From an uncultured cyanobacterium (GTDB lineage: Bacteria; Cyanobacteriota; Cyanobacteriia; Cyanobacteriales; Microcystaceae): 49,540 bases of DNA. The notes under the pieces were generated by a model. It did not search any database and was not told where the DNA came from. It saw nothing but the letters and a program-made list of their open reading frames with translations. Made by a program: the position numbers and the translations under genes. The stretch spans positions 1 through 49,540 of the forward strand of contig CAIPYC010000171.1 of NCBI GenBank assembly GCA_903869185.1. The letters run 5' to 3'. Positions 8,822 through 47,983 of this stretch are shown here, piece after piece. Each line of letters starts with the position of its first letter. The first letter of the stretch is position 1.

Positions 8822-10615
8822 ATGTCCCTGCCCATCCGCAATGTTGCTATCATTGCTCACGTTGACCATGGTAAGACCACTCTAGTTGATGCTCTACTAA
8901 GACAATCTGGTATCTTTCGCGAAGGAGAGGAGGTTCCAGAATGTGTAATGGACTCAAATGCCTTGGAGCGAGAACGTGGCATCACTATACTCTCGAAAAA
9001 CACCGCTGTTCGTTACAAAGATACCCTGATCAATATTGTAGATACTCCTGGACACGCTGATTTTGGTGGTGAGGTAGAGCGAGTACTAGGTATGGTAGAC
9101 GGTTGTATCTTGATTGTAGATGCTAACGAAGGACCAATGCCTCAGACTCGTTTTGTTTTGAAAAAAGCCCTAGAAAAAGGATTACGTCCTCTGTTGGTAA
9201 TCAATAAAATTGACCGACCAAGAGCCAATCCCAATGATGCAGTAACCAAGGTTTTTGATCTTTTTGTTGAATTGGGAGCTGACGATGATCAGTGTGATTT
9301 TACTACCTTATTTGCTTCAGGTATCTCTGGTTATGCCAAGACCAACCTGGAAGACGAGCCTGTAGATATGCAGCCGCTCTTTGAAGCCATACTACAGCAT
9401 GTTCCACCCCCAGTTGGGGATATCAACAAGCCACTTCAACTCCAAGTTACCAGTCTCGACTATTCAGATTACCTGGGTAGAATCGTAATCGGTAGAATCC
9501 ATAATGGTGTCCTCAAATCTGGACAACAAGCAGCATTGGTAAAAGAAGATGCTTCGATAGTCAAAGGAAAAATCACCAAGCTTTTAGGTTTTGAAGGATT
9601 AAAAAGAGTTGAACTCGAAGAAGCTTCAGCGGGACAAATAGTTGCAGTAGCAGGATTTGCCGATGCCAATATCGGTGAGACCATTACTTCGGCTGATAAT
9701 CCACAACCCCTCCCTCTAATCAAGGTTGATGAACCCACCTTACAGATGACTTTCTCTGTCAACGATTCTCCTTTTGCTGGACAAGAGGGTAACTTTGTAA
9801 CCTCAAGGCAAATTAGAGATCGTCTAATGCGTGAACTTGAAACCAATGTAGCCTTACGAGTGGAAGAGACAGAATCTTCCGATAAGTTCTTAGTCTCAGG
9901 TCGTGGTGAATTACACTTGGGTATTTTGATAGAGACTATGCGCCGCGAAGGTTATGAATTTCAAGTATCCCAGCCCCAAGTAATCTATCGTCAGGTCAAT
10001 GGTCAACCAAATGAACCATTTGAATATTTGGTTCTAGATGTTCCCGAAGAATCAGTAGGTTCATCTATTGAACGACTGGGACAGCGCAAGGGAGAAATGC
10101 AGGATATGCAAAATGGTGGCAATGGACGTACTCAACTTGAGTTTGTTATTCCGGCTCGTGGTCTAATTGGATTTAGAGGGGATTTCATTCGTCTAACCCG
10201 TGGTGAAGGTATCATGAATCACAGTTTTCATGAATATCGACCATATTGTGGGGATTTGGAAACTCGCTACAATGGTGTCATGATTGCATTTGAAGAGGGA
10301 GTTTCCACCTTCTACGCACTCAAAAATGCAGAAGATCGGGGCGCTTTCTTTATCAGTCCAAGTACAAAGGTCTATAAGGGAATGATTGTAGGAGAACATA
10401 ATCGTCCACAGGATGTAGAACTCAATGTTTGCAAAACTAAACAGTTGACCAATCACCGCTCGGCTACTGGAGATGAACTGGTTCAACTGCAAACTCCAGT
10501 GGATATGAGCCTCGAAAGAGCTTTGGAATATATAGGATCCGATGAGCTCGTTGAGGTGACCCCCAAGTCAATCCGTCTGCGAAAACTGAATACTAAAAAA
10601 TTAGCCAAGCGCTAG
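8822..10615 (+). CDS. typA: ribosome-associated translational GTPase TypA/BipA
   Basis: A 597-residue translational GTPase related to EF-G, which binds the 70S ribosome and supports ribosome assembly and stress growth. The G domain shows G1 [15 protein letters not shown] (around residues 11-25), the switch segment ERERGITI, G3 DTPGHADF and G4 NKIDR. It is followed by the beta-barrel domain, two EF-G-like domains ([31 protein letters not shown]) and the BipA-specific C-terminal domain. The length is standard. The ATG at 8822 follows AAAGG at a normal spacing. Its TAG stop shares four bases with the stop of the convergent exosortase gene. Confidence 0.97.
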
Positions 10616-12222
10616 GACATGTTTTCTCCTATATAACCGGACCATTGAGTATAATTTGCTGACCAGAGTGATTCAAGAAGCTGGTCGGCTTTTTCATGAT
10701 TTGTATTCTCCAATGGAGTAGAAAGCTTAAACCAGAGACAACGCTGATCGTCAAGAATATCACTGCCTAGAAGCCAAGGAACGATCCTATTGGATTTGAA
10801 ATAAAAGTTCTTACTATTTTCCTCAAATTGCTCCTGAGTCACAGTACTTTCACCTTTAGCATTAATACAGCTCACCAGATGAGCTTGATTGTGATCGTTG
10901 GTCAAAAGATAATAGCCATATTTGTTGTGGCGAATATGCCGCTTGATATCTTTACTATTACCTGCTAAATAATTTAGCCATTCATTCATCTGATTTTGAC
11001 CAGTATTAACCACATAGTAACGCTCTAAATCTAGATTGTTATTTCCCTGAAGATAATGAGAACTCTGACCAGATAACATAGCTTCGAAATGTGGAGCAAC
11101 ATCTAACTTTGGAGTATTTAATTTTTTTGTACTTATCAATTGCCAGTTATTTAATGATAAATTCTCCAGCCTTGCTGCATCCGCTCTGAGTCCTTGAATT
11201 GGAGATGAAACAAAAAATAGATAAAATATAGAGAGGAAAATAAGACATATAGCTATTATTAGGATCCGCAAACGATTTTTGCTTACCTTTGCGTTGCCAA
11301 AAATAGAAAGTAGCTTGGAAGTTGATTCATTGTTTTCATCCAAAGGGATGAGCCAGCTACATATTAAGACAAAACCTAAGGTTGCCACAGATAGGAAAAA
11401 CTGTCCTCCTTGGGAGCCATGCCAGTAATGAAAAACCTTGGAATTATTAACTACTGTTACTAGAAAAGCTACTCTTAAACAACCGAGACCAAAACCCACA
11501 CCAATAGCTGCCAGGGCAAGAGATATTTTTCTAGACCAATTCAAGGTATAGATCAATGTCATAAGGAGTGTAACCTTGAGAAGGATTAGTGTAAGCGGAC
11601 CTCCAGCGCAAATGTAGCTGACTCTTACAGTACCGGTAGGGATGGTTAAATAAGCGCCATGGAAGGTTACATCTTTTCCTAAGTAGTGCAAGATGAAGGC
11701 GGCAATTGCTGCTGTAATTTGATCAATATGAATCCATTCGTTGAAAAGAGGTGAATTGGTGGGGATTACCATGAATCCCAAGTAAAGTGCATAGATCCAA
11801 TATGAAGGAAGTTTTGACCATTCAACTGAAAGTAAGGCAAAAATAAAAGCCAGAAAATAAGCGCTGTAAATGAAAAAATCCACATCAAGCCAACTAATAC
11901 CAAGTAATCTAACTAGTATAAAAGTCAAAAATACCAAGGCTATGTATGTTTGATAAATACTGTTTTTTATCAGATTAAGAGGACGACTGCGCCAGCAAAT
12001 CAGAATCACTGCAGACCAAAAAGGAAGTTCAAATGATACCAAATCAGTAGGAAGAAGGCGATTATTTTTAATAGATACTGTTGAGAATTTCCAAGCTAGA
12101 ACAAAGTGCAATATAGCCAAAAAAACAGAAATCAATAAAAGATAGAATTTGGGACTAGCAAGTAGTTCAAGGTATTCTTTGAAATACTCAGATGACCCTG
12201 ATATGCTTTTAAGTTTTATCAT
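10612..12222 (-). CDS. cyanobacterial exosortase fused to a C-terminal associated domain
   Basis: A 536-residue membrane protein. Residues 1-295 form a polytopic exosortase, a transpeptidase that processes proteins carrying PEP-CTERM-type sorting tails. The catalytic set is visible: Cys205 in VRVSYICAGG, Arg250 in LGCLRVAF, and His265 or His268 in FHYWHGSQGG. A linker (296-315) leads to one more membrane span (about 317-340) and a roughly 195-residue hydrophilic tail containing a WLNYL block and paired cysteines. This tail resembles the EpsI-like or cyanoexosortase-associated protein usually encoded separately next to cyanoexosortase A; that assignment is inferred. The HpsJ-like gene upstream overlaps it by 14 bp, so the two form an operon. 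A plausible substrate is the broken gene at 45226-45759. Confidence 0.8.
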   Translation of the reverse strand: MIKLKSISGSSEYFKEYLELLASPKFYLLLISVFLAILHFVLAWKFSTVSIKNNRLLPTDLVSFELPFWSAVILICWRSRPLNLIKNSIYQTYIALVFLTFILVRLLGISWLDVDFFIYSAYFLAFIFALLSVEWSKLPSYWIYALYLGFMVIPTNSPLFNEWIHIDQITAAIAAFILHYLGKDVTFHGAYLTIPTGTVRVSYICAGGPLTLILLKVTLLMTLIYTLNWSRKISLALAAIGVGFGLGCLRVAFLVTVVNNSKVFHYWHGSQGGQFFLSVATLGFVLICSWLIPLDENNESTSKLLSIFGNAKVSKNRLRILIIAICLIFLSIFYLFFVSSPIQGLRADAARLENLSLNNWQLISTKKLNTPKLDVAPHFEAMLSGQSSHYLQGNNNLDLERYYVVNTGQNQMNEWLNYLAGNSKDIKRHIRHNKYGYYLLTNDHNQAHLVSCINAKGESTVTQEQFEENSKNFYFKSNRIVPWLLGSDILDDQRCLWFKLSTPLENTNHEKADQLLESLWSANYTQWSGYIGENMS

Positions 12223-12982
12223 TTTTAGAACCCTTTTTAATCAGAACTCTTACCCATCTGGTGTTTTTCCAAATAAGACCCAAACCCAAGCCACTCAACA
12301 AAGTCCCTAATACAGCTCTGGTAGTGGTTTTAAATAAATCAGTCACACTGGATTTTGCTCGGTTGATAGTGGTCAGAGTGTATTCTGTCTTCGATTTAAC
12401 CAATTCTTGTTTAGCTATTTCCTTAAGTTGTTGCTCTTTAGGCTTACCTGTCAATACTTTTTGAGGATTAATTGATTGAATAAATGCAGTAAGGTCTTGA
12501 GCCGAATTTGATGATTCTATTAGAGACTTAATTTGTTCCGATTTATTCTGAGCAGCGGCAATAGCAAAGGTTTTTTCATTTTTGTATTTGCCATATATTT
12601 CAAAGGCATTAAATAAGGTTAAAGGGAAAAGCAAAAAATAAAAAATAGATAGAATAAGTGAAAGCCAAGACAAATAGTAAAGTACCCTTAGTAAATTACG
12701 CTTAATTTGTGTATCAGCCCTATAGAAAAAAATAAGACCAAAGCCAAGAAGCGCAATCCAAATTCTATCCAACATTGAGTTGATTATTGCCAATTCCCAA
12801 AAACTATCCATAAAATGGGGTGGGATTAAAATAGCAAAAAAATCTACGAAAAAAAGTGCCAATATTATATAACCCATTTTCCGAAAGAGCTCAAAGCCTC
12901 TTATCTCCATTCCCTTTGATAGCATAAACCCCTTGTACCGGTTAATACTGGGCGTTTTTGATGATTCTAATTCTGGTTGCAT
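12209..12982 (-). CDS. HpsJ-like exosortase-associated membrane protein
   Basis: A 257-residue membrane protein. Three hydrophobic spans are visible around residues 35-55, 68-88 and 100-125, then a charged Lys/Gln/Glu-rich stretch (about 130-215) that probably forms a long helix, and a final span near 225-245 (VLGTLLSGLGLGLIWKNTRW) before a basic tail. This layout and the motif around NSMLDRIWIALLGFGLIFFYR match the HpsJ family, named for hormogonium polysaccharide secretion in filamentous cyanobacteria and also found beside cyanoexosortases. It is the first gene of a two-gene operon with the exosortase. A direct role in motility cannot be inferred. Confidence 0.7.
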   Translation of the reverse strand: MQPELESSKTPSINRYKGFMLSKGMEIRGFELFRKMGYIILALFFVDFFAILIPPHFMDSFWELAIINSMLDRIWIALLGFGLIFFYRADTQIKRNLLRVLYYLSWLSLILSIFYFLLFPLTLFNAFEIYGKYKNEKTFAIAAAQNKSEQIKSLIESSNSAQDLTAFIQSINPQKVLTGKPKEQQLKEIAKQELVKSKTEYTLTTINRAKSSVTDLFKTTTRAVLGTLLSGLGLGLIWKNTRWVRVLIKKGSKNDKT

Positions 12983-43468: not shown

Positions 43469-44827
43469 TTATTGTGCCTTCAAAAATACAATAGATTCCA
43501 CATGAGTAGTCTGCGGGAACAAGTCAGCACTCTGAATGCGAGTGATCTTATAATTCCCTGTTTGAGTTAAAAGCTTGAGATCCCTTGCTAGAGTTGGAGG
43601 TTGACAACTTACATAGACCAGGCGCGAGGCCATTATTTGACATAACTGTTCAATTACCTCAAAAGAACAGCCCTTGCGAGGTGGATCCAGAATTATCACA
43701 TCAGGTTTAATCTCTAGATTGGGTAGAATTTCCTCAACCTTACCCTGATAGAAAGTGACATTATCAATCTGATTTGCTTGAGCATTGTAATATGCTCGCT
43801 CAAGAGCAGACTCTTGGATTTCAATTCCGATTGCTTTAGCGACAAGACGGGCGATTGGTAGTGTGAAAGTACCTATTCCACAATAGGCATCTAAAACGGT
43901 CTCAGTTCCTTTTAGCTGGAGTTCTTCTATGATTATTTTCAACATCAATTCAGCCATCTCTGTATTGATTTGAAAAAATGTATCAGATCCCAGCTGTAAT
44001 TCCAAATCGGCAAATATTTCTCTGACGTAGGGTTTACCAGAGACAGAGTAGGTTTTTGGTCCAAATATCCTATTGCCCTTGCTCTGATTGATATTGAGAT
44101 TTACCCCTATCAAGTTAGGGTATTTTGATAACCATTTTTCTGCCTGTTCTTGCAAATCGGGTACATTTCCATCCGAAGAGACCAGGGTCAAAAGAACTTC
44201 ACCAGTCCTGCGTCCAATTAACATAGAAAGATGTCGTAGGAGTCCGGTATGCGTTTTTTCATCATATATGGACCAATTACGCCTTTGGATATCTTGTTTA
44301 ATTTCAGTTAGGAGTAAATTAAAATGTACGTCTTGGACAGGACATTGATTTAGATTGACTATATGATGACTTTTTGATTGATAATAGCCGGCCTGCAGCG
44401 CCCCCGACGCCGATCTTCCAAGTGGGTAGGTCACCCTGTTACGATACCCTAAAGATTCTTTTGATTTGAGAATTGGAGAAAATGGCAAATCGTCAATAAC
44501 CAAGCCACCAATTCTTCGTAAAGCTTGCTTGAGATGATCTTCTTTTAGTTGACCTTGGTAAAGATCACTTATATGTTGCCACTGACACCCACCACACTTG
44601 TCGGCAACGATGCAGCGAGGACGTTCTCTATATTGTGAAGGACGTAAGATTTCCAAAACCACAGATCGGGCATACTCATCTTTGAGATATTCTAAACGAA
44701 CTCTGGCTAGATCACCGGTAACTGTATTGGGAACAAACACTACCCTGTCTTGATAGCGACCAACTCCCTCGCCACTATTGCTGACATCGGTTATTTCAAG
44801 TTCAAGAACTACGCCTTGTTGCCACAT
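43469..44827 (-). CDS. rlmD: 23S rRNA (uracil-C5)-methyltransferase RlmD
   Basis: A 452-residue SAM-dependent RNA methyltransferase of the RumA family. It starts with a TRAM RNA-binding domain (LEITDVSNSGEGVGRYQDRV), followed by the iron-sulfur cysteines (CIVADKCGGCQWQH), the SAM motif VLDAYCGIGTFTLPIA, LDPPRKGC, and the catalytic cysteine block YVSCQPPTLARDL. The frame is open to 44965, but the extra 46 codons run through the tRNA-Glu gene, so ATG 44827 (MWQQGVVLELEI) is the true start. U1939-type specificity is inferred from the family; U747-type cannot be excluded. Confidence 0.9.
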   Translation of the reverse strand: MWQQGVVLELEITDVSNSGEGVGRYQDRVVFVPNTVTGDLARVRLEYLKDEYARSVVLEILRPSQYRERPRCIVADKCGGCQWQHISDLYQGQLKEDHLKQALRRIGGLVIDDLPFSPILKSKESLGYRNRVTYPLGRSASGALQAGYYQSKSHHIVNLNQCPVQDVHFNLLLTEIKQDIQRRNWSIYDEKTHTGLLRHLSMLIGRRTGEVLLTLVSSDGNVPDLQEQAEKWLSKYPNLIGVNLNINQSKGNRIFGPKTYSVSGKPYVREIFADLELQLGSDTFFQINTEMAELMLKIIIEELQLKGTETVLDAYCGIGTFTLPIARLVAKAIGIEIQESALERAYYNAQANQIDNVTFYQGKVEEILPNLEIKPDVIILDPPRKGCSFEVIEQLCQIMASRLVYVSCQPPTLARDLKLLTQTGNYKITRIQSADLFPQTTHVESIVFLKAQ

Positions 44828-44884
44828 ATTATTTATTATCCAAAAACATAAAGGAGGCAGATATACATCTACCTCCGAGTAAAA

Positions 44885-44957
44885 TAGCCCCAAGGGAATT
44901 CGAATCCCTGTCTTCTCCGTGAAAGGGAGACGTCCTAGGCCTCTAGACGATGGGGCC
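44885..44957 (-). tRNA. trnE: tRNA-Glu (UUC)
   Basis: On the minus strand the 73 bases fold as a tRNA: acceptor GGCCCCA pairs with TGGGGCT (with the G1-U72 pair normal for cyanobacterial and chloroplast tRNA-Glu) and A73; the D arm is CGTCTAGAGGCCTAGGACG-like; the anticodon loop is CTTTCAC giving UUC; the T arm contains GATTCGAATTC. CCA is not encoded. In cyanobacteria this tRNA also supplies glutamate for haem and chlorophyll synthesis through glutamyl-tRNA reductase. It lies 57 bp before rlmD. Confidence 0.96.
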
Positions 44958-45020
44958 AAGCTCACATTTTCTTATTGTAAAGCCGATCTTGATTTTCTGT
45001 CAAGTAACTTGCTAGGGTAA

Positions 45021-45164
45021 TCAGGGCAATCGCACACTTTTGTTAACATTATACCTACCTTGAAGGAGTTAGAAGATATATTTGAACTGTCAGAATGGAA
45101 ACAAACTCAATTCTATAAAGATACAAAACTTGAAGGTCTTTAAGAGGGTAAATTAAAAACAATA
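45021..45164 (+). pseudogene. remnant of an Rpn-family recombination-promoting nuclease / putative transposase
   Basis: In one frame the text reads IIPTLKELEDIFELSEWKQT, then QFYKDTKLEGL, a TAA stop (45141-45143), and EGKLKTI. This resembles the C-terminal tail of the PD-(D/E)XK nuclease proteins abundant in cyanobacteria, which end in a pattern like LSREEIEAMLGLxxLKQTRFYQEAKEEGRQEGKLE. Only about 45 codons survive, with an in-frame stop and a stop just upstream (45018). The catalytic domain is absent, so it is a decayed fragment. Identification rests on the tail pattern alone. Confidence 0.5.
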
Positions 45165-45225
45165 TTTGCTCACAACCCCAAAAGCCCCTGTCTCCTTGTG
45201 GGATACCTGATTTAGGGAGAAGCCT

Positions 45226-45759
45226 TTAAGCTCTTTTCTTTTTGAGATATCTCAAACCAATAAATAGTGGCACACCCAACATGAAGCCCTGTTCCGGGGA
45301 AAATTCAAAGGGGACGGTTGGTTGCGGTGGGGGTTAGTTTGGATGTTAGGATGACCCAATTATCATCCTGATCATAGCTATACGCATACGGTCCACTCGA
45401 CCCAAATACCCTAGTATTTTTTCCACTACTTTTGGCATATTCAAATCCGTTATCGTTGACCAATATCGGTGAGCTACTTGTTCCGTTCCACTTGATGGTT
45501 TGCGATGCAATACCCCAATAATTTGATAAACCAGTAATTGTCTCTGCCGAACCGCCATTAGGTGTATACGTTCCTGCAATATCCGATATTGTATATATAT
45601 CTGTATCTGTGGTGTTGAAGGTAGTTCCGTCGGTAGTGAACGTCCCGATAGCTTGTCCACCATAATCATCCGTATACGACCAGTTCCAAGGCAGGGCATG
45701 TGTCGGGGCACAAAGTGCGAGGCTGCTCTTTCAAAAAAACCAGGTTTTTGGAGTGACAT
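45226..45759 (-). pseudogene. secreted exosortase-substrate protein with PFExSP-type C-terminal sorting signal, broken by two frameshifts
   Basis: The parts lie in three frames on the minus strand. An ATG at 45759 opens MSLQKPGFF. The next frame gives a signal-peptide end (SSLALCAPTHA), then a mature domain from about 45690 to a TGA at 45305-45307: WNWSYTDDYGGQAIGTFTTD, YTISDIAGTY, ETITGLSNYW, IKWNGTSSSPILVNDNGF, SSGPYAYSY. A third frame gives PTVPFEFSPEQG, a hydrophobic FMLGVPLFIGL and the basic end KKKRA, stopping at 45226. That is a complete PEP-CTERM-like tripartite tail. Dropping one C from the run at 45329-45333 joins domain and tail; one missing base near 45712-45733 explains the other break. 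It lies 21 bp after the preceding minus-strand gene. Confidence 0.75.
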
Positions 45760-45780
45760 TGTTTGCTTTTTTAAAAAGAT

Positions 45781-46197
45781 TTACAAAGGAAAAAAAATAG
45801 ATTTAAAAAGCTGTCGTAATTGAAGCAAAAGAATTATATTTCCTATCTTTGGATTTAACTGTGCTGGGTAAGGAGTAGTTTTCAGCTTCTCCTTAATAGC
45901 AGCATATTGCAATGAATTCATTGGCTTTCCATCTAGGGGAGAGCGAGCCGTTGTGACCACCTCCGACCGCAGAACTTCTTCAGGGATATCTTCAGGAGGA
46001 GGTAAGGACAAAGCTTGTAAAGGCAAGAAATTAAAAAGTAAAACTAATCCAAAGATTAATTTAGGGCGTAGATGTCTGTTCCGGGGAATCTGTCTGTGTC
46101 TGTGGCGGGAGTGATGGCTGTGGGGGTGATGGCTGCTGCTGTGGTGTGATCTCCTTGAGCCATCTGACGATCTCTGACTGGGCGATAGTATAGACAT
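45781..46197 (-). CDS. small secreted/membrane conserved hypothetical protein, start unresolved
   Basis: The recognisable protein begins around 46075 with a hydrophobic segment (LIFGLVLLFNFLPLQALS) and continues PPPEDIPEEVLRSEVVTTAR, SPLDGKPMNSLQYAAIKEKL and a C-terminal LLLQLRQLFKSIFFPL. I know this style as a cyanobacterial conserved hypothetical with an N-terminal signal and a proline-rich PPPEDIPEE motif; function unknown. No ATG, GTG or TTG exists in frame between the signal region and ATG 46197. Starting there would add about 40 residues of Ser/His/Arg-rich sequence lying wholly within the preceding gene in another frame, which looks like a shadow. A lost or altered start codon is possible. 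Confidence 0.5.
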   Translation of the reverse strand: MSILSPSQRSSDGSRRSHHSSSHHPHSHHSRHRHRQIPRNRHLRPKLIFGLVLLFNFLPLQALSLPPPEDIPEEVLRSEVVTTARSPLDGKPMNSLQYAAIKEKLKTTPYPAQLNPKIGNIILLLQLRQLFKSIFFPL

Positions 46198-47983
46198 TAC
46201 TAGAATGATGTATCATTTGAGCAATACGTATGGCCTCCCGATAGGAGGATTGATCTGCTCGATCCCGAGCTAAACCGAGAAGTTGGCTACTCCAGAGCTC
46301 AATAGCGCTTTGGGCCTGAGGATTGGCATCCGAATAAGCGGGTATATCCTCTGCCAAACCAATTGCCCGGGCAAGATTCCCCGGGGTTCTAGATGAGGCT
46401 ATTTCATAAGCCCTATCCAGGTTATAGCTTGAGTTCATTTCTCTGTGCCAATGCCTAATTTTTGCTTGGATTTGTTCATAAAGAGGATGACCAGAAGGTA
46501 TTCTCTCTGCTGTTGCTATTGCACTTGGATAATCCTTGTTATTGGCTAAGTAATTAGCTCGATCAACAATTGGTTGGTCTTCAATATTGTAGATTTGTTC
46601 TTGCCAATAAGCTATCTTATGCTGAGCTTCGCTAAAGAGAGCCCTTCCAGAATTAATAGCTTGAGCTTGAGCAATTGCCAACCTCAAAACCGAAACATTT
46701 CCTTCTCCAAGGCGAGCGGTTTGCTCAGCCCGATTGAGAATTGGCTGATCTTCTATTGTTTCAATAGATGCCTGCCATTTGTTCATTAATTCTTGGGCTT
46801 GATGATAGCGAGGATTATTCAAAGGAATCAGACTGAGCTGAAGAATGGCATTTTGATAGTCATCAATAGTACCCATGCTGGCCAATTCATTGGACTTACT
46901 GATAAAGACAAGATCACTGGCTTCTAGTTGCCAACGATCTATAAAGGATCTAGCTTCGCTATAGAGCCTATCTCCAAGCTGGATTTTTTTCATAGCATCT
47001 ATAGCATTTTGAAAAGAATCTGGATTATCTGAAGAAGTATCTTCTATAGCAGTAAGGAAAATGTGCCACCTGTTGATTTCAGCTTGGAAAACTTGACGAT
47101 TCCCAACTGAATTCACAATAGATTGAACCTTACTCCAGTTTTTTTGAATAATATTACTATCTACGAGATCGACTACATTGTATTTATTTTTTTGAATGAG
47201 TTCTTGAGCCTGCTTATAAACATAGCTATCAGGAGGAATTTCACTGACTTCATCTAATGCTTTAAGCCAGTTTTCCAATCCACCCTCTTTAGATGCATCA
47301 GAAGCTAAATCAAGTTGTTCATGTTGTTGTTGGGCTAATTGTACTTTTTTTATAGCTCCATTGTATTGAACTGTTGACCAGTATTTATTTTTTATATTTA
47401 ATATCTCAACAGCCAATCTGAGTGCATATTCCCAGTTTGACTGTCGCAGCTGATTATCTATTTGGCTTAAGTGATCTGTGCCGATCTTCCAGATATCTTG
47501 CCATTTAACGATCCTCTTTTCTGCAACTTGATAAGATTTAGAAAAAACCGGGATTTTGTGGGCAATCTCTATTGCTTGATTCATATTTCCATCTTGAAAG
47601 TCTTTCTCTGCTAGATTGAGTAATTCTGTAGACCACTGCTCTAAAGAACGATCTATTTCTGGCCTAAGGGCATGATCTTGAGGGAGAGATCGTACTAACT
47701 CAATTGCTTGAAGCAAACTTTCTAAAGTACCATGCTGAGCATAAATCTGCGCGCAGTAAATTCGCAAAGAAGCCGAGGCTGTAGGCCAAAAAATTGTTGA
47801 ACAATTGGGTGCTTTTGGGACAAGGAAAAGATTGGAAATTGCAGTAAATCCTAAACCTCCTGAAACAGCAATCGAGAAGACAGCCCAAAACTGCCAAGGA
47901 AGCTGTTTAAATTTGGGACTTTTTTTCTTGAGCCAGGTTTTGATTGTGAAAGGGTCTGGAGGTATTTTCTTATTAGAAATCAC
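46061..47983 (-). CDS. membrane-anchored helical-repeat protein of a cyanobacterial family
   Basis: A 640-residue protein with one span near residues 33-55 (FWAVFSIAVSGGLGFTAISN) and the family block APNCSTIFWPTASASLRIYC just after it. The rest is a run of degenerate repeats of roughly 40-80 residues with the theme A..IA..IP..HPLY..AQ..I..W...I (for example TAERIPSGHPLYEQIQAKIR and AIGLAEDIPAYSDANPQAQS). The C-terminus is Pro/Gln/Thr-rich. Homologues are often labelled chromosome segregation ATPase, but no Walker motif is present here, so that name is misleading. A periplasmic scaffold role is a guess. The start is GTG 47983. It follows hslO by 54 bp on the same strand. Confidence 0.7.
   Translation of the reverse strand: MISNKKIPPDPFTIKTWLKKKSPKFKQLPWQFWAVFSIAVSGGLGFTAISNLFLVPKAPNCSTIFWPTASASLRIYCAQIYAQHGTLESLLQAIELVRSLPQDHALRPEIDRSLEQWSTELLNLAEKDFQDGNMNQAIEIAHKIPVFSKSYQVAEKRIVKWQDIWKIGTDHLSQIDNQLRQSNWEYALRLAVEILNIKNKYWSTVQYNGAIKKVQLAQQQHEQLDLASDASKEGGLENWLKALDEVSEIPPDSYVYKQAQELIQKNKYNVVDLVDSNIIQKNWSKVQSIVNSVGNRQVFQAEINRWHIFLTAIEDTSSDNPDSFQNAIDAMKKIQLGDRLYSEARSFIDRWQLEASDLVFISKSNELASMGTIDDYQNAILQLSLIPLNNPRYHQAQELMNKWQASIETIEDQPILNRAEQTARLGEGNVSVLRLAIAQAQAINSGRALFSEAQHKIAYWQEQIYNIEDQPIVDRANYLANNKDYPSAIATAERIPSGHPLYEQIQAKIRHWHREMNSSYNLDRAYEIASSRTPGNLARAIGLAEDIPAYSDANPQAQSAIELWSSQLLGLARDRADQSSYREAIRIAQMIHHSSNVYTIAQSEIVRWLKEITPQQQPSPPQPSLPPQTQTDSPEQTSTP

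Follow-up and report, generated by a model that had tools for sequence, protein, structure and literature searches.

The segment at 45226-45759 of the window (the whole 49,540-nt stretch of cyanobacterial DNA that was analysed) is very probably a PFE-CTERM-type surface-protein paralogue that died recently and is both truncated at the 5' end and frameshifted; it would be a duplicate that decayed at a rearrangement point. Intact relatives would be exported through a signal peptide and anchored in the inner membrane by their PFE tail, and an exosortase would process them. The original prediction was of an exosortase-substrate gene split out of frame; this stood for the end of the signal peptide, the secreted domain and the PFE tail but not for the true start. 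The features on which the argument draws are as follows.

45781-46197, minus strand: upstream neighbour, a small conserved protein with an open frame
45346-45759, minus strand: spurious mechanical ORF that shares the tail frame and misreads the domain
45731-45733, minus strand: TGA in the domain frame, at the expected site of the signal-peptide core
45308-45724, minus strand: signal-peptide end remnant (SLALCAPTHA) and secreted domain in one frame, by homology to a paralogue on contig C203
45329-45333, minus strand: run of five C beside the domain/tail frame change, seen in the sequence
45226-45333, minus strand: PFE-CTERM-type tail in the other frame, with PFEFSP motif, hydrophobic stretch, KKKRA and stop
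45159-45227, minus strand: palindromic element of about 65 nt, 3' of the broken gene, from a profile search
45060-45167, plus strand: DUF2887-type piece with one internal stop, converging on the broken gene, 69% identical to a gene on contig C42
44884-44958, minus strand: tRNA-Glu, downstream neighbour
12209-12982, minus strand: HpsJ-like protein, cyanoexosortase A-associated (NF050013), adjoining the fused exosortase
10612-12222, minus strand: exosortase fused to a cyanoexosortase-A-associated domain

The domain reading frame was open over 141 codons (45730-45308, minus strand) and was closed by a stop at 45307-45305. When the 425-nt domain stretch was base-shuffled, 1 of 5000 shuffles was stop-free in one given frame; this and the match to the paralogue (E 1.3e-24) show that chance does not account for the open stretch. 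The tail, VPFEFSPEQGFMLGVPLFIGLRYLKKKRA (45315-45229, minus strand, stop 45228-45226), lies in a frame other than that of the domain. Three different frames had been claimed, but there are two in all, as the tail shares its frame with the ATG at 45759 (45759-45315 = 444 = 3 x 148). The peptide that follows this ATG (MSLQKPGFFERAAS...) is the beginning of a mechanical ORF of 137 amino acids that runs out of frame across the domain, and the ATG was rejected as the gene start; it opens a spurious frame shared with the tail.

The head of the gene is missing. DNA homology to the intact gene on C203 starts at 45724, within the last signal-peptide residues, and only 56 nt lie between this point and the upstream gene, whose stop is at 45783-45781. 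A hydrophobic core was absent from all three frames over the 75 nt upstream, where the best 10-residue means were 0.97, 1.05 and 0.22; the comparison heads of the PFE family, eight picked by us, including that of the broken C103, gave 2.03-2.71 in 8/8 cases. An in-frame TGA is present in the domain frame at 45733-45731. At the 3' end, the run of five C had been described correctly (45333-45329), and the frame does switch between it and the PFE motif. With neither homology nor a core upstream of 45724, an in-frame TGA and a change of frame near the C run, the window copy is headless as well as frameshifted. The suggestion that each junction needs no more than a one-base change is not supported, given where the 5' homology starts, the missing core and the TGA. 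Because the copy has no start, no signal-peptide core and a tail out of frame, no anchored product would be expected from it, and we infer that it is not expressed. A consensus scan of 44850-46300 found no terminator-like sites and two promoter-like sites against 2.9 expected, one of which precedes the tRNA-Glu; within 44700-46300 there were no repeats of at least 18 nt.

The source genome (G000) is a draft of 205 contigs and 2.76 Mb, in which the domain had a single further match at E<=10, that on C203 (58% protein identity). This paralogue is an open frame of 203 codons in which a signal peptide, the same domain and the tail PFEFSPEQGFMLGIPLFIGLRYLKKKRA follow one another in a single frame. 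At the DNA level the window copy and C203 were 72% identical across 569 nt, extending past the stop codon into the 3' flank. Their tails are nearly identical, with the form PFEFSPEQGFMLG(I/V)PLFIGLRYLKKKRA, and since 4 of the 6 differing tail codons are synonymous (counted by eye) the tail was under constraint until lately. For the comparison as a whole, dN/dS was 0.22/0.34, which is neither clear constraint nor clear neutrality; both points count against the reading as a pseudogene. Across 58 genomes, four (G000 included) had a domain match at E<=0.001, the others being G002, a sister genome in the same genus, G006 and G036. The five G002 copies of the domain all carry a PFE tail in frame, whereas the relative in G006 (40% identity) stops with no tail in frame and the one in G036 has a basic tail at its end and no PFE motif; the idea that homologues should end in a sorting tail was thus borne out by C203 and the G002 copies and not by the G006 and G036 relatives. 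The dN to the G002 copies was lower for the window domain than for C203 in 5/5 comparisons (two of the five copies being near-identical), and this, together with a domain still open over 141 codons, suggests that the window gene was lost recently. A recent pseudogene had been one option in the original prediction, and it is supported by the lost head, the in-frame stop, the frameshift and the intact paralogue. The domain had no Pfam family, with no match for the window piece or the copy on G002:C6 and only GLEYA at E 0.99 for C203; against NCBIfam the window piece gave a chance-level match only (E 0.13) and C203 only the PFE tail itself.

The surroundings of the relic were compared with those in two congeners, G001 and G002. 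In both, the upstream TPR/small-protein pair is followed by another gene and then a further one, neither of them a PFE gene; we take these to be an AbrB-like and then a succinate-dehydrogenase-type gene. On the other side, in G001 and G002 too, the tRNA-Glu has a homologue of the 43469-44965 gene next to it. In G002 the tRNA-Glu is then followed by a non-PFE gene, presumably of NYN type, and the G001 locus stops at the tRNA. Two congeners thus lack the PFE gene next to this upstream neighbour, and one (G002) lacks it next to the tRNA; since neither of the equivalent places holds a PFE gene, the relic probably sits where the G000 lineage was rearranged. AbrB-, NYN- and SdhB-type genes were not among the G000 loci examined. 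Across the window Rfam (gathering threshold) returned the tRNA alone. The DUF2887-type piece at 45060-45167 matches the C-terminal part of the C42 gene, mostly past the Pfam domain, and had no Pfam match of its own.

The tail had been taken for a variant sorting signal, and its best NCBIfam match was indeed PFE-CTERM (NF050011), although it scored 14.8 bits as a peptide and 12.1 in the genome scan, and C203 scored 17.3, against a cut-off of 24. Like functional members of that family, which has many paralogues per genome, the window copy has a C-terminal PFE-type motif, a hydrophobic stretch and a basic end; unlike them, it falls below the cut-off score and has neither a signal peptide nor a tail in frame. 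Homology to an intact gene combined with disabling lesions places it with the pseudogenes of PFE-CTERM-type genes. A search of the genome for further tails of this kind, as had been advised, was productive: NF050011 gave 14 matches at E<=10 in G000, three of them over the cut-off. Since 11 of 14 control genomes also matched at this E-value (none over the cut-off), the weaker matches were vetted by reading the sequences individually, part of them by DNA likeness. Open or broken status was likewise assigned by reading: nine of the 14 are open from head to tail (C76, C78, C68, C38, C54, C203, C87, C196 and C37), three lie at contig ends (C91, C32 and C42) and two are broken (the window copy and C62). 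Two further copies, found by other searches than NF050011, look broken: C103 has an internal loss and its tail in another frame, and a stop codon interrupts the head of C10, which shows no tail within the stretch examined. In G002:C112 a long open domain runs on over the tail, which lies in a different frame. Over 50 genomes, 32 matched NF050011 at E<=0.2, yet so did 2 of 14 controls, and only G000 and G002 passed the cut-off; because control genomes match as well, we make no claim on the distribution of PFE tails. We note that the C103 gene gave weak, sub-cut-off matches to the DUF3782 and PD-(D/E)XK families, and that in C10 a fragment similar to this DUF3782/PD-(D/E)XK-like gene adjoins the broken PFE-family gene.

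Several members of the family share their ends but not what lies between them. The genes on C203 and C38 have unlike domains, with no DNA match between these (C38 is built of 132-nt repeats), and have in common 336 nt of head (87%) and 132 nt of tail and sequence past the stop (97%). C203 and C54 have two stretches in common, of 126 nt (79%) and 87 nt (95%), and C10 and C62 share 262 nt of head at 89%. The palindromic element found 3' of the broken gene lies 3' of many PFE genes and, inverted, 5' of some; loci with it include C203, C62 and C192. At E<=0.05 it was present at 7/14 tail-profile loci, at 10/17 G000 loci overall and at 5/13 G002 loci, with the qualification that nine G000 copies went into the profile, so that most G000 matches arise by construction and the G002 matches and the control are independent. 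The remaining 7/17 G000 loci are without it, intact genes among them. No match at E<=1 came from the control, which comprised 20 contigs chosen by number (222,319 bases) and the rest of the window; it held no PFE tail but the window's own, and included the two classical PEP-tail genes of C65. An integron attC-like site was considered as a possible identity of the palindrome.

The C-terminal part of the C42 gene had six matches in G000, one at a contig start and five beside PFE loci, the five including the query itself and two close together on C196. The palindromic element adjoined 8/8 DUF2887 3' ends (the window, C38, C42 and two on C196; C38, C45 and C74 in G002), at loci that had been selected for PFE genes; a control DUF2887 piece on C5 was without it, but the 3' end of this piece is off the contig. 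None of the 10 profile matches in G000 was a complete DUF2887 gene, and most lie at contig ends, so this is partly the draft state. DUF2887 may play a role in copying, and it may be distantly like the Rpn recombination-promoting nucleases, from which G000 differs in that only incomplete DUF2887 pieces were found. Neither DUF2887 nor PF11103 appeared in the text of the Rpn paper (PMC5350276). A tentative proposal, which we regard as possible but somewhat unlikely, is that the PFE-CTERM genes of the genus spread and swap domains as cassettes with a common head and tail around unlike domains; that the palindrome of about 65 nt bounds many of these, direct at the 3' side and inverted at the 5' side; that DUF2887-type genes with the element 3' of them aid the copying; that the window holds a cassette minus its 5' end; and that out-of-frame tails are failed joins. 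The cassette layout is drawn from two draft genomes. Among open-licence papers nothing was found in print on shared ends, palindromic element and DUF2887-type pieces together, and none was found for DUF2887 or PFE-CTERM by name. It is this pattern, rather than the broken gene, that we consider worth pursuing.

One explanation for a broken copy in a draft of 205 contigs, with one break at a C run, is that the cell holds an intact gene and that errors of sequencing or assembly produced the breaks. We judge this very unlikely, as the head is missing altogether and not shifted, and errors would have to account for this loss as well as for the in-frame stop and the frameshift; moreover, the neighbouring genes are open, and collapse of a repeat is unlikely because the tail and flank differ from every other copy found (the nearest being 83-89% alike over 90-170 nt). 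Storage of the domain in a silent donor, a headless and unexpressed cassette that recombines into expressed PFE genes via the tail DNA, would fit the near-identical ends around unlike domains in C203 and C38, but we give it little credence: the alignment of the window copy to C203, the sole other G000 copy of the domain, is 72% identical overall and shows no mosaic block, and a single genome gives no evidence of ongoing exchange.

Another possibility, raised in the original prediction, is a phase-variable surface protein whose anchoring is toggled by homopolymer slippage. The run of five C adjoins the domain/tail junction, the broken C103 likewise has such a run at its tail, and three copies (the window, C62 and G002:C112) have their frame break between domain and tail. 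The tracts are short, however, with T7, A6 and C5 the only ones in the window copy, and a C5 run stands next to the PFE motif of the intact C203 as well. At the junctions of C62 and G002:C112 there is no tract of 6 A/T or 5 C/G, and the three breaks have no tract in common. A phase-variable gene would have a long tract framing an otherwise complete gene, and this gene is incomplete; with the head gone, no change in a single tract would restore a secreted protein. We hold a slippage switch to be extremely improbable for these reasons, and a programmed frameshift was rejected with it, as the breaks share neither tract nor site. The pattern of breaks speaks for faulty joins, or for drift in what would be a weakly constrained linker, over a programmed shift. 

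We prefer the reading of a dead paralogue, in which a gene duplicate would have landed, or been left, at the rearrangement point between the TPR/small-protein pair and the tRNA-Glu and would then have decayed, probably in that order; repeats may have had a role in the rearrangement. As a gene, this one decayed copy from a family that gains and loses members carries little weight and is of a kind to be expected among exosortase substrates, PFE-CTERM being an already curated family in which a dead member is expected, but its analysis corrects a reading that might pass for a genetic switch. Lineage-wise paralogous expansion of PEP-CTERM genes, with frequent duplication and loss, has been described (Haft et al. 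2006, PMC1569441). In the Nostoc scytonemin cluster, ScyE carries PEP-CTERM and ScyD is a duplicate of an exosortase-substrate-type gene considered a possible pseudogene by its authors; ScyD was judged by missing purifying selection and is kept across cyanobacteria (PMC4870267), whereas the lesions of the window copy are physical, and congeners lack it at the corresponding place.

Two exosortases were found in each of G000, G001 and G002 at E<=1e-4, and in G000 there are also two classes of tail, PEP and PFE; with two of each, the original suggestion that the tail marks what the window's exosortase may recognise remains tentative. The fused exosortase of the window scored 96 bits to cyanoexosortase A (cut-off 150) and 125 to the A-associated domain (cut-off 100). 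Contig C196 codes for the second in G000, a plain cyanoexosortase A that scored 251 bits and is adjoined by a gene with a PFD-type tail. PEP-CTERM substrates (TIGR04155) share the working principle of the PFE proteins, but the motif in the window is PFExSP and not PEP, and the PEP tails form a second set in G000, where 7 of 13 TIGR04155 matches at E<=1 were over the cut-off and no control genome had any. In Nostoc punctiforme a cyanoexosortase B goes with a set of surface proteins and its deletion alters the exoproteome (PMC12188702); G000 differs in having the plain cyanoexosortase A and a fused exosortase best scored by A-type models. The term cyanoexosortase was not found in the main text of PMC8205485.

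Some further observations concern the neighbourhoods and tails of other family members. After the tail of G002:C112 comes an HpsJ-family gene that scores under the A cut-off, and on C37 an HpsJ-like A gene comes after the PFE gene. The contig ends C37 1-141 and C87 2414-2554 are identical across 141 nt, and C87 and C37 are probably adjacent, with tandem PFE genes; C37 584-1660 and C87 1406-2472 are 87% alike. The HAF-repeat protein of C192 has a tail that starts PSP/PEP-like (TVPSPSTLGG) and ends PFE-type (PLFLGLRYLKKKRA), with a similar 3' flank, and this tail may be a hybrid of the two types.
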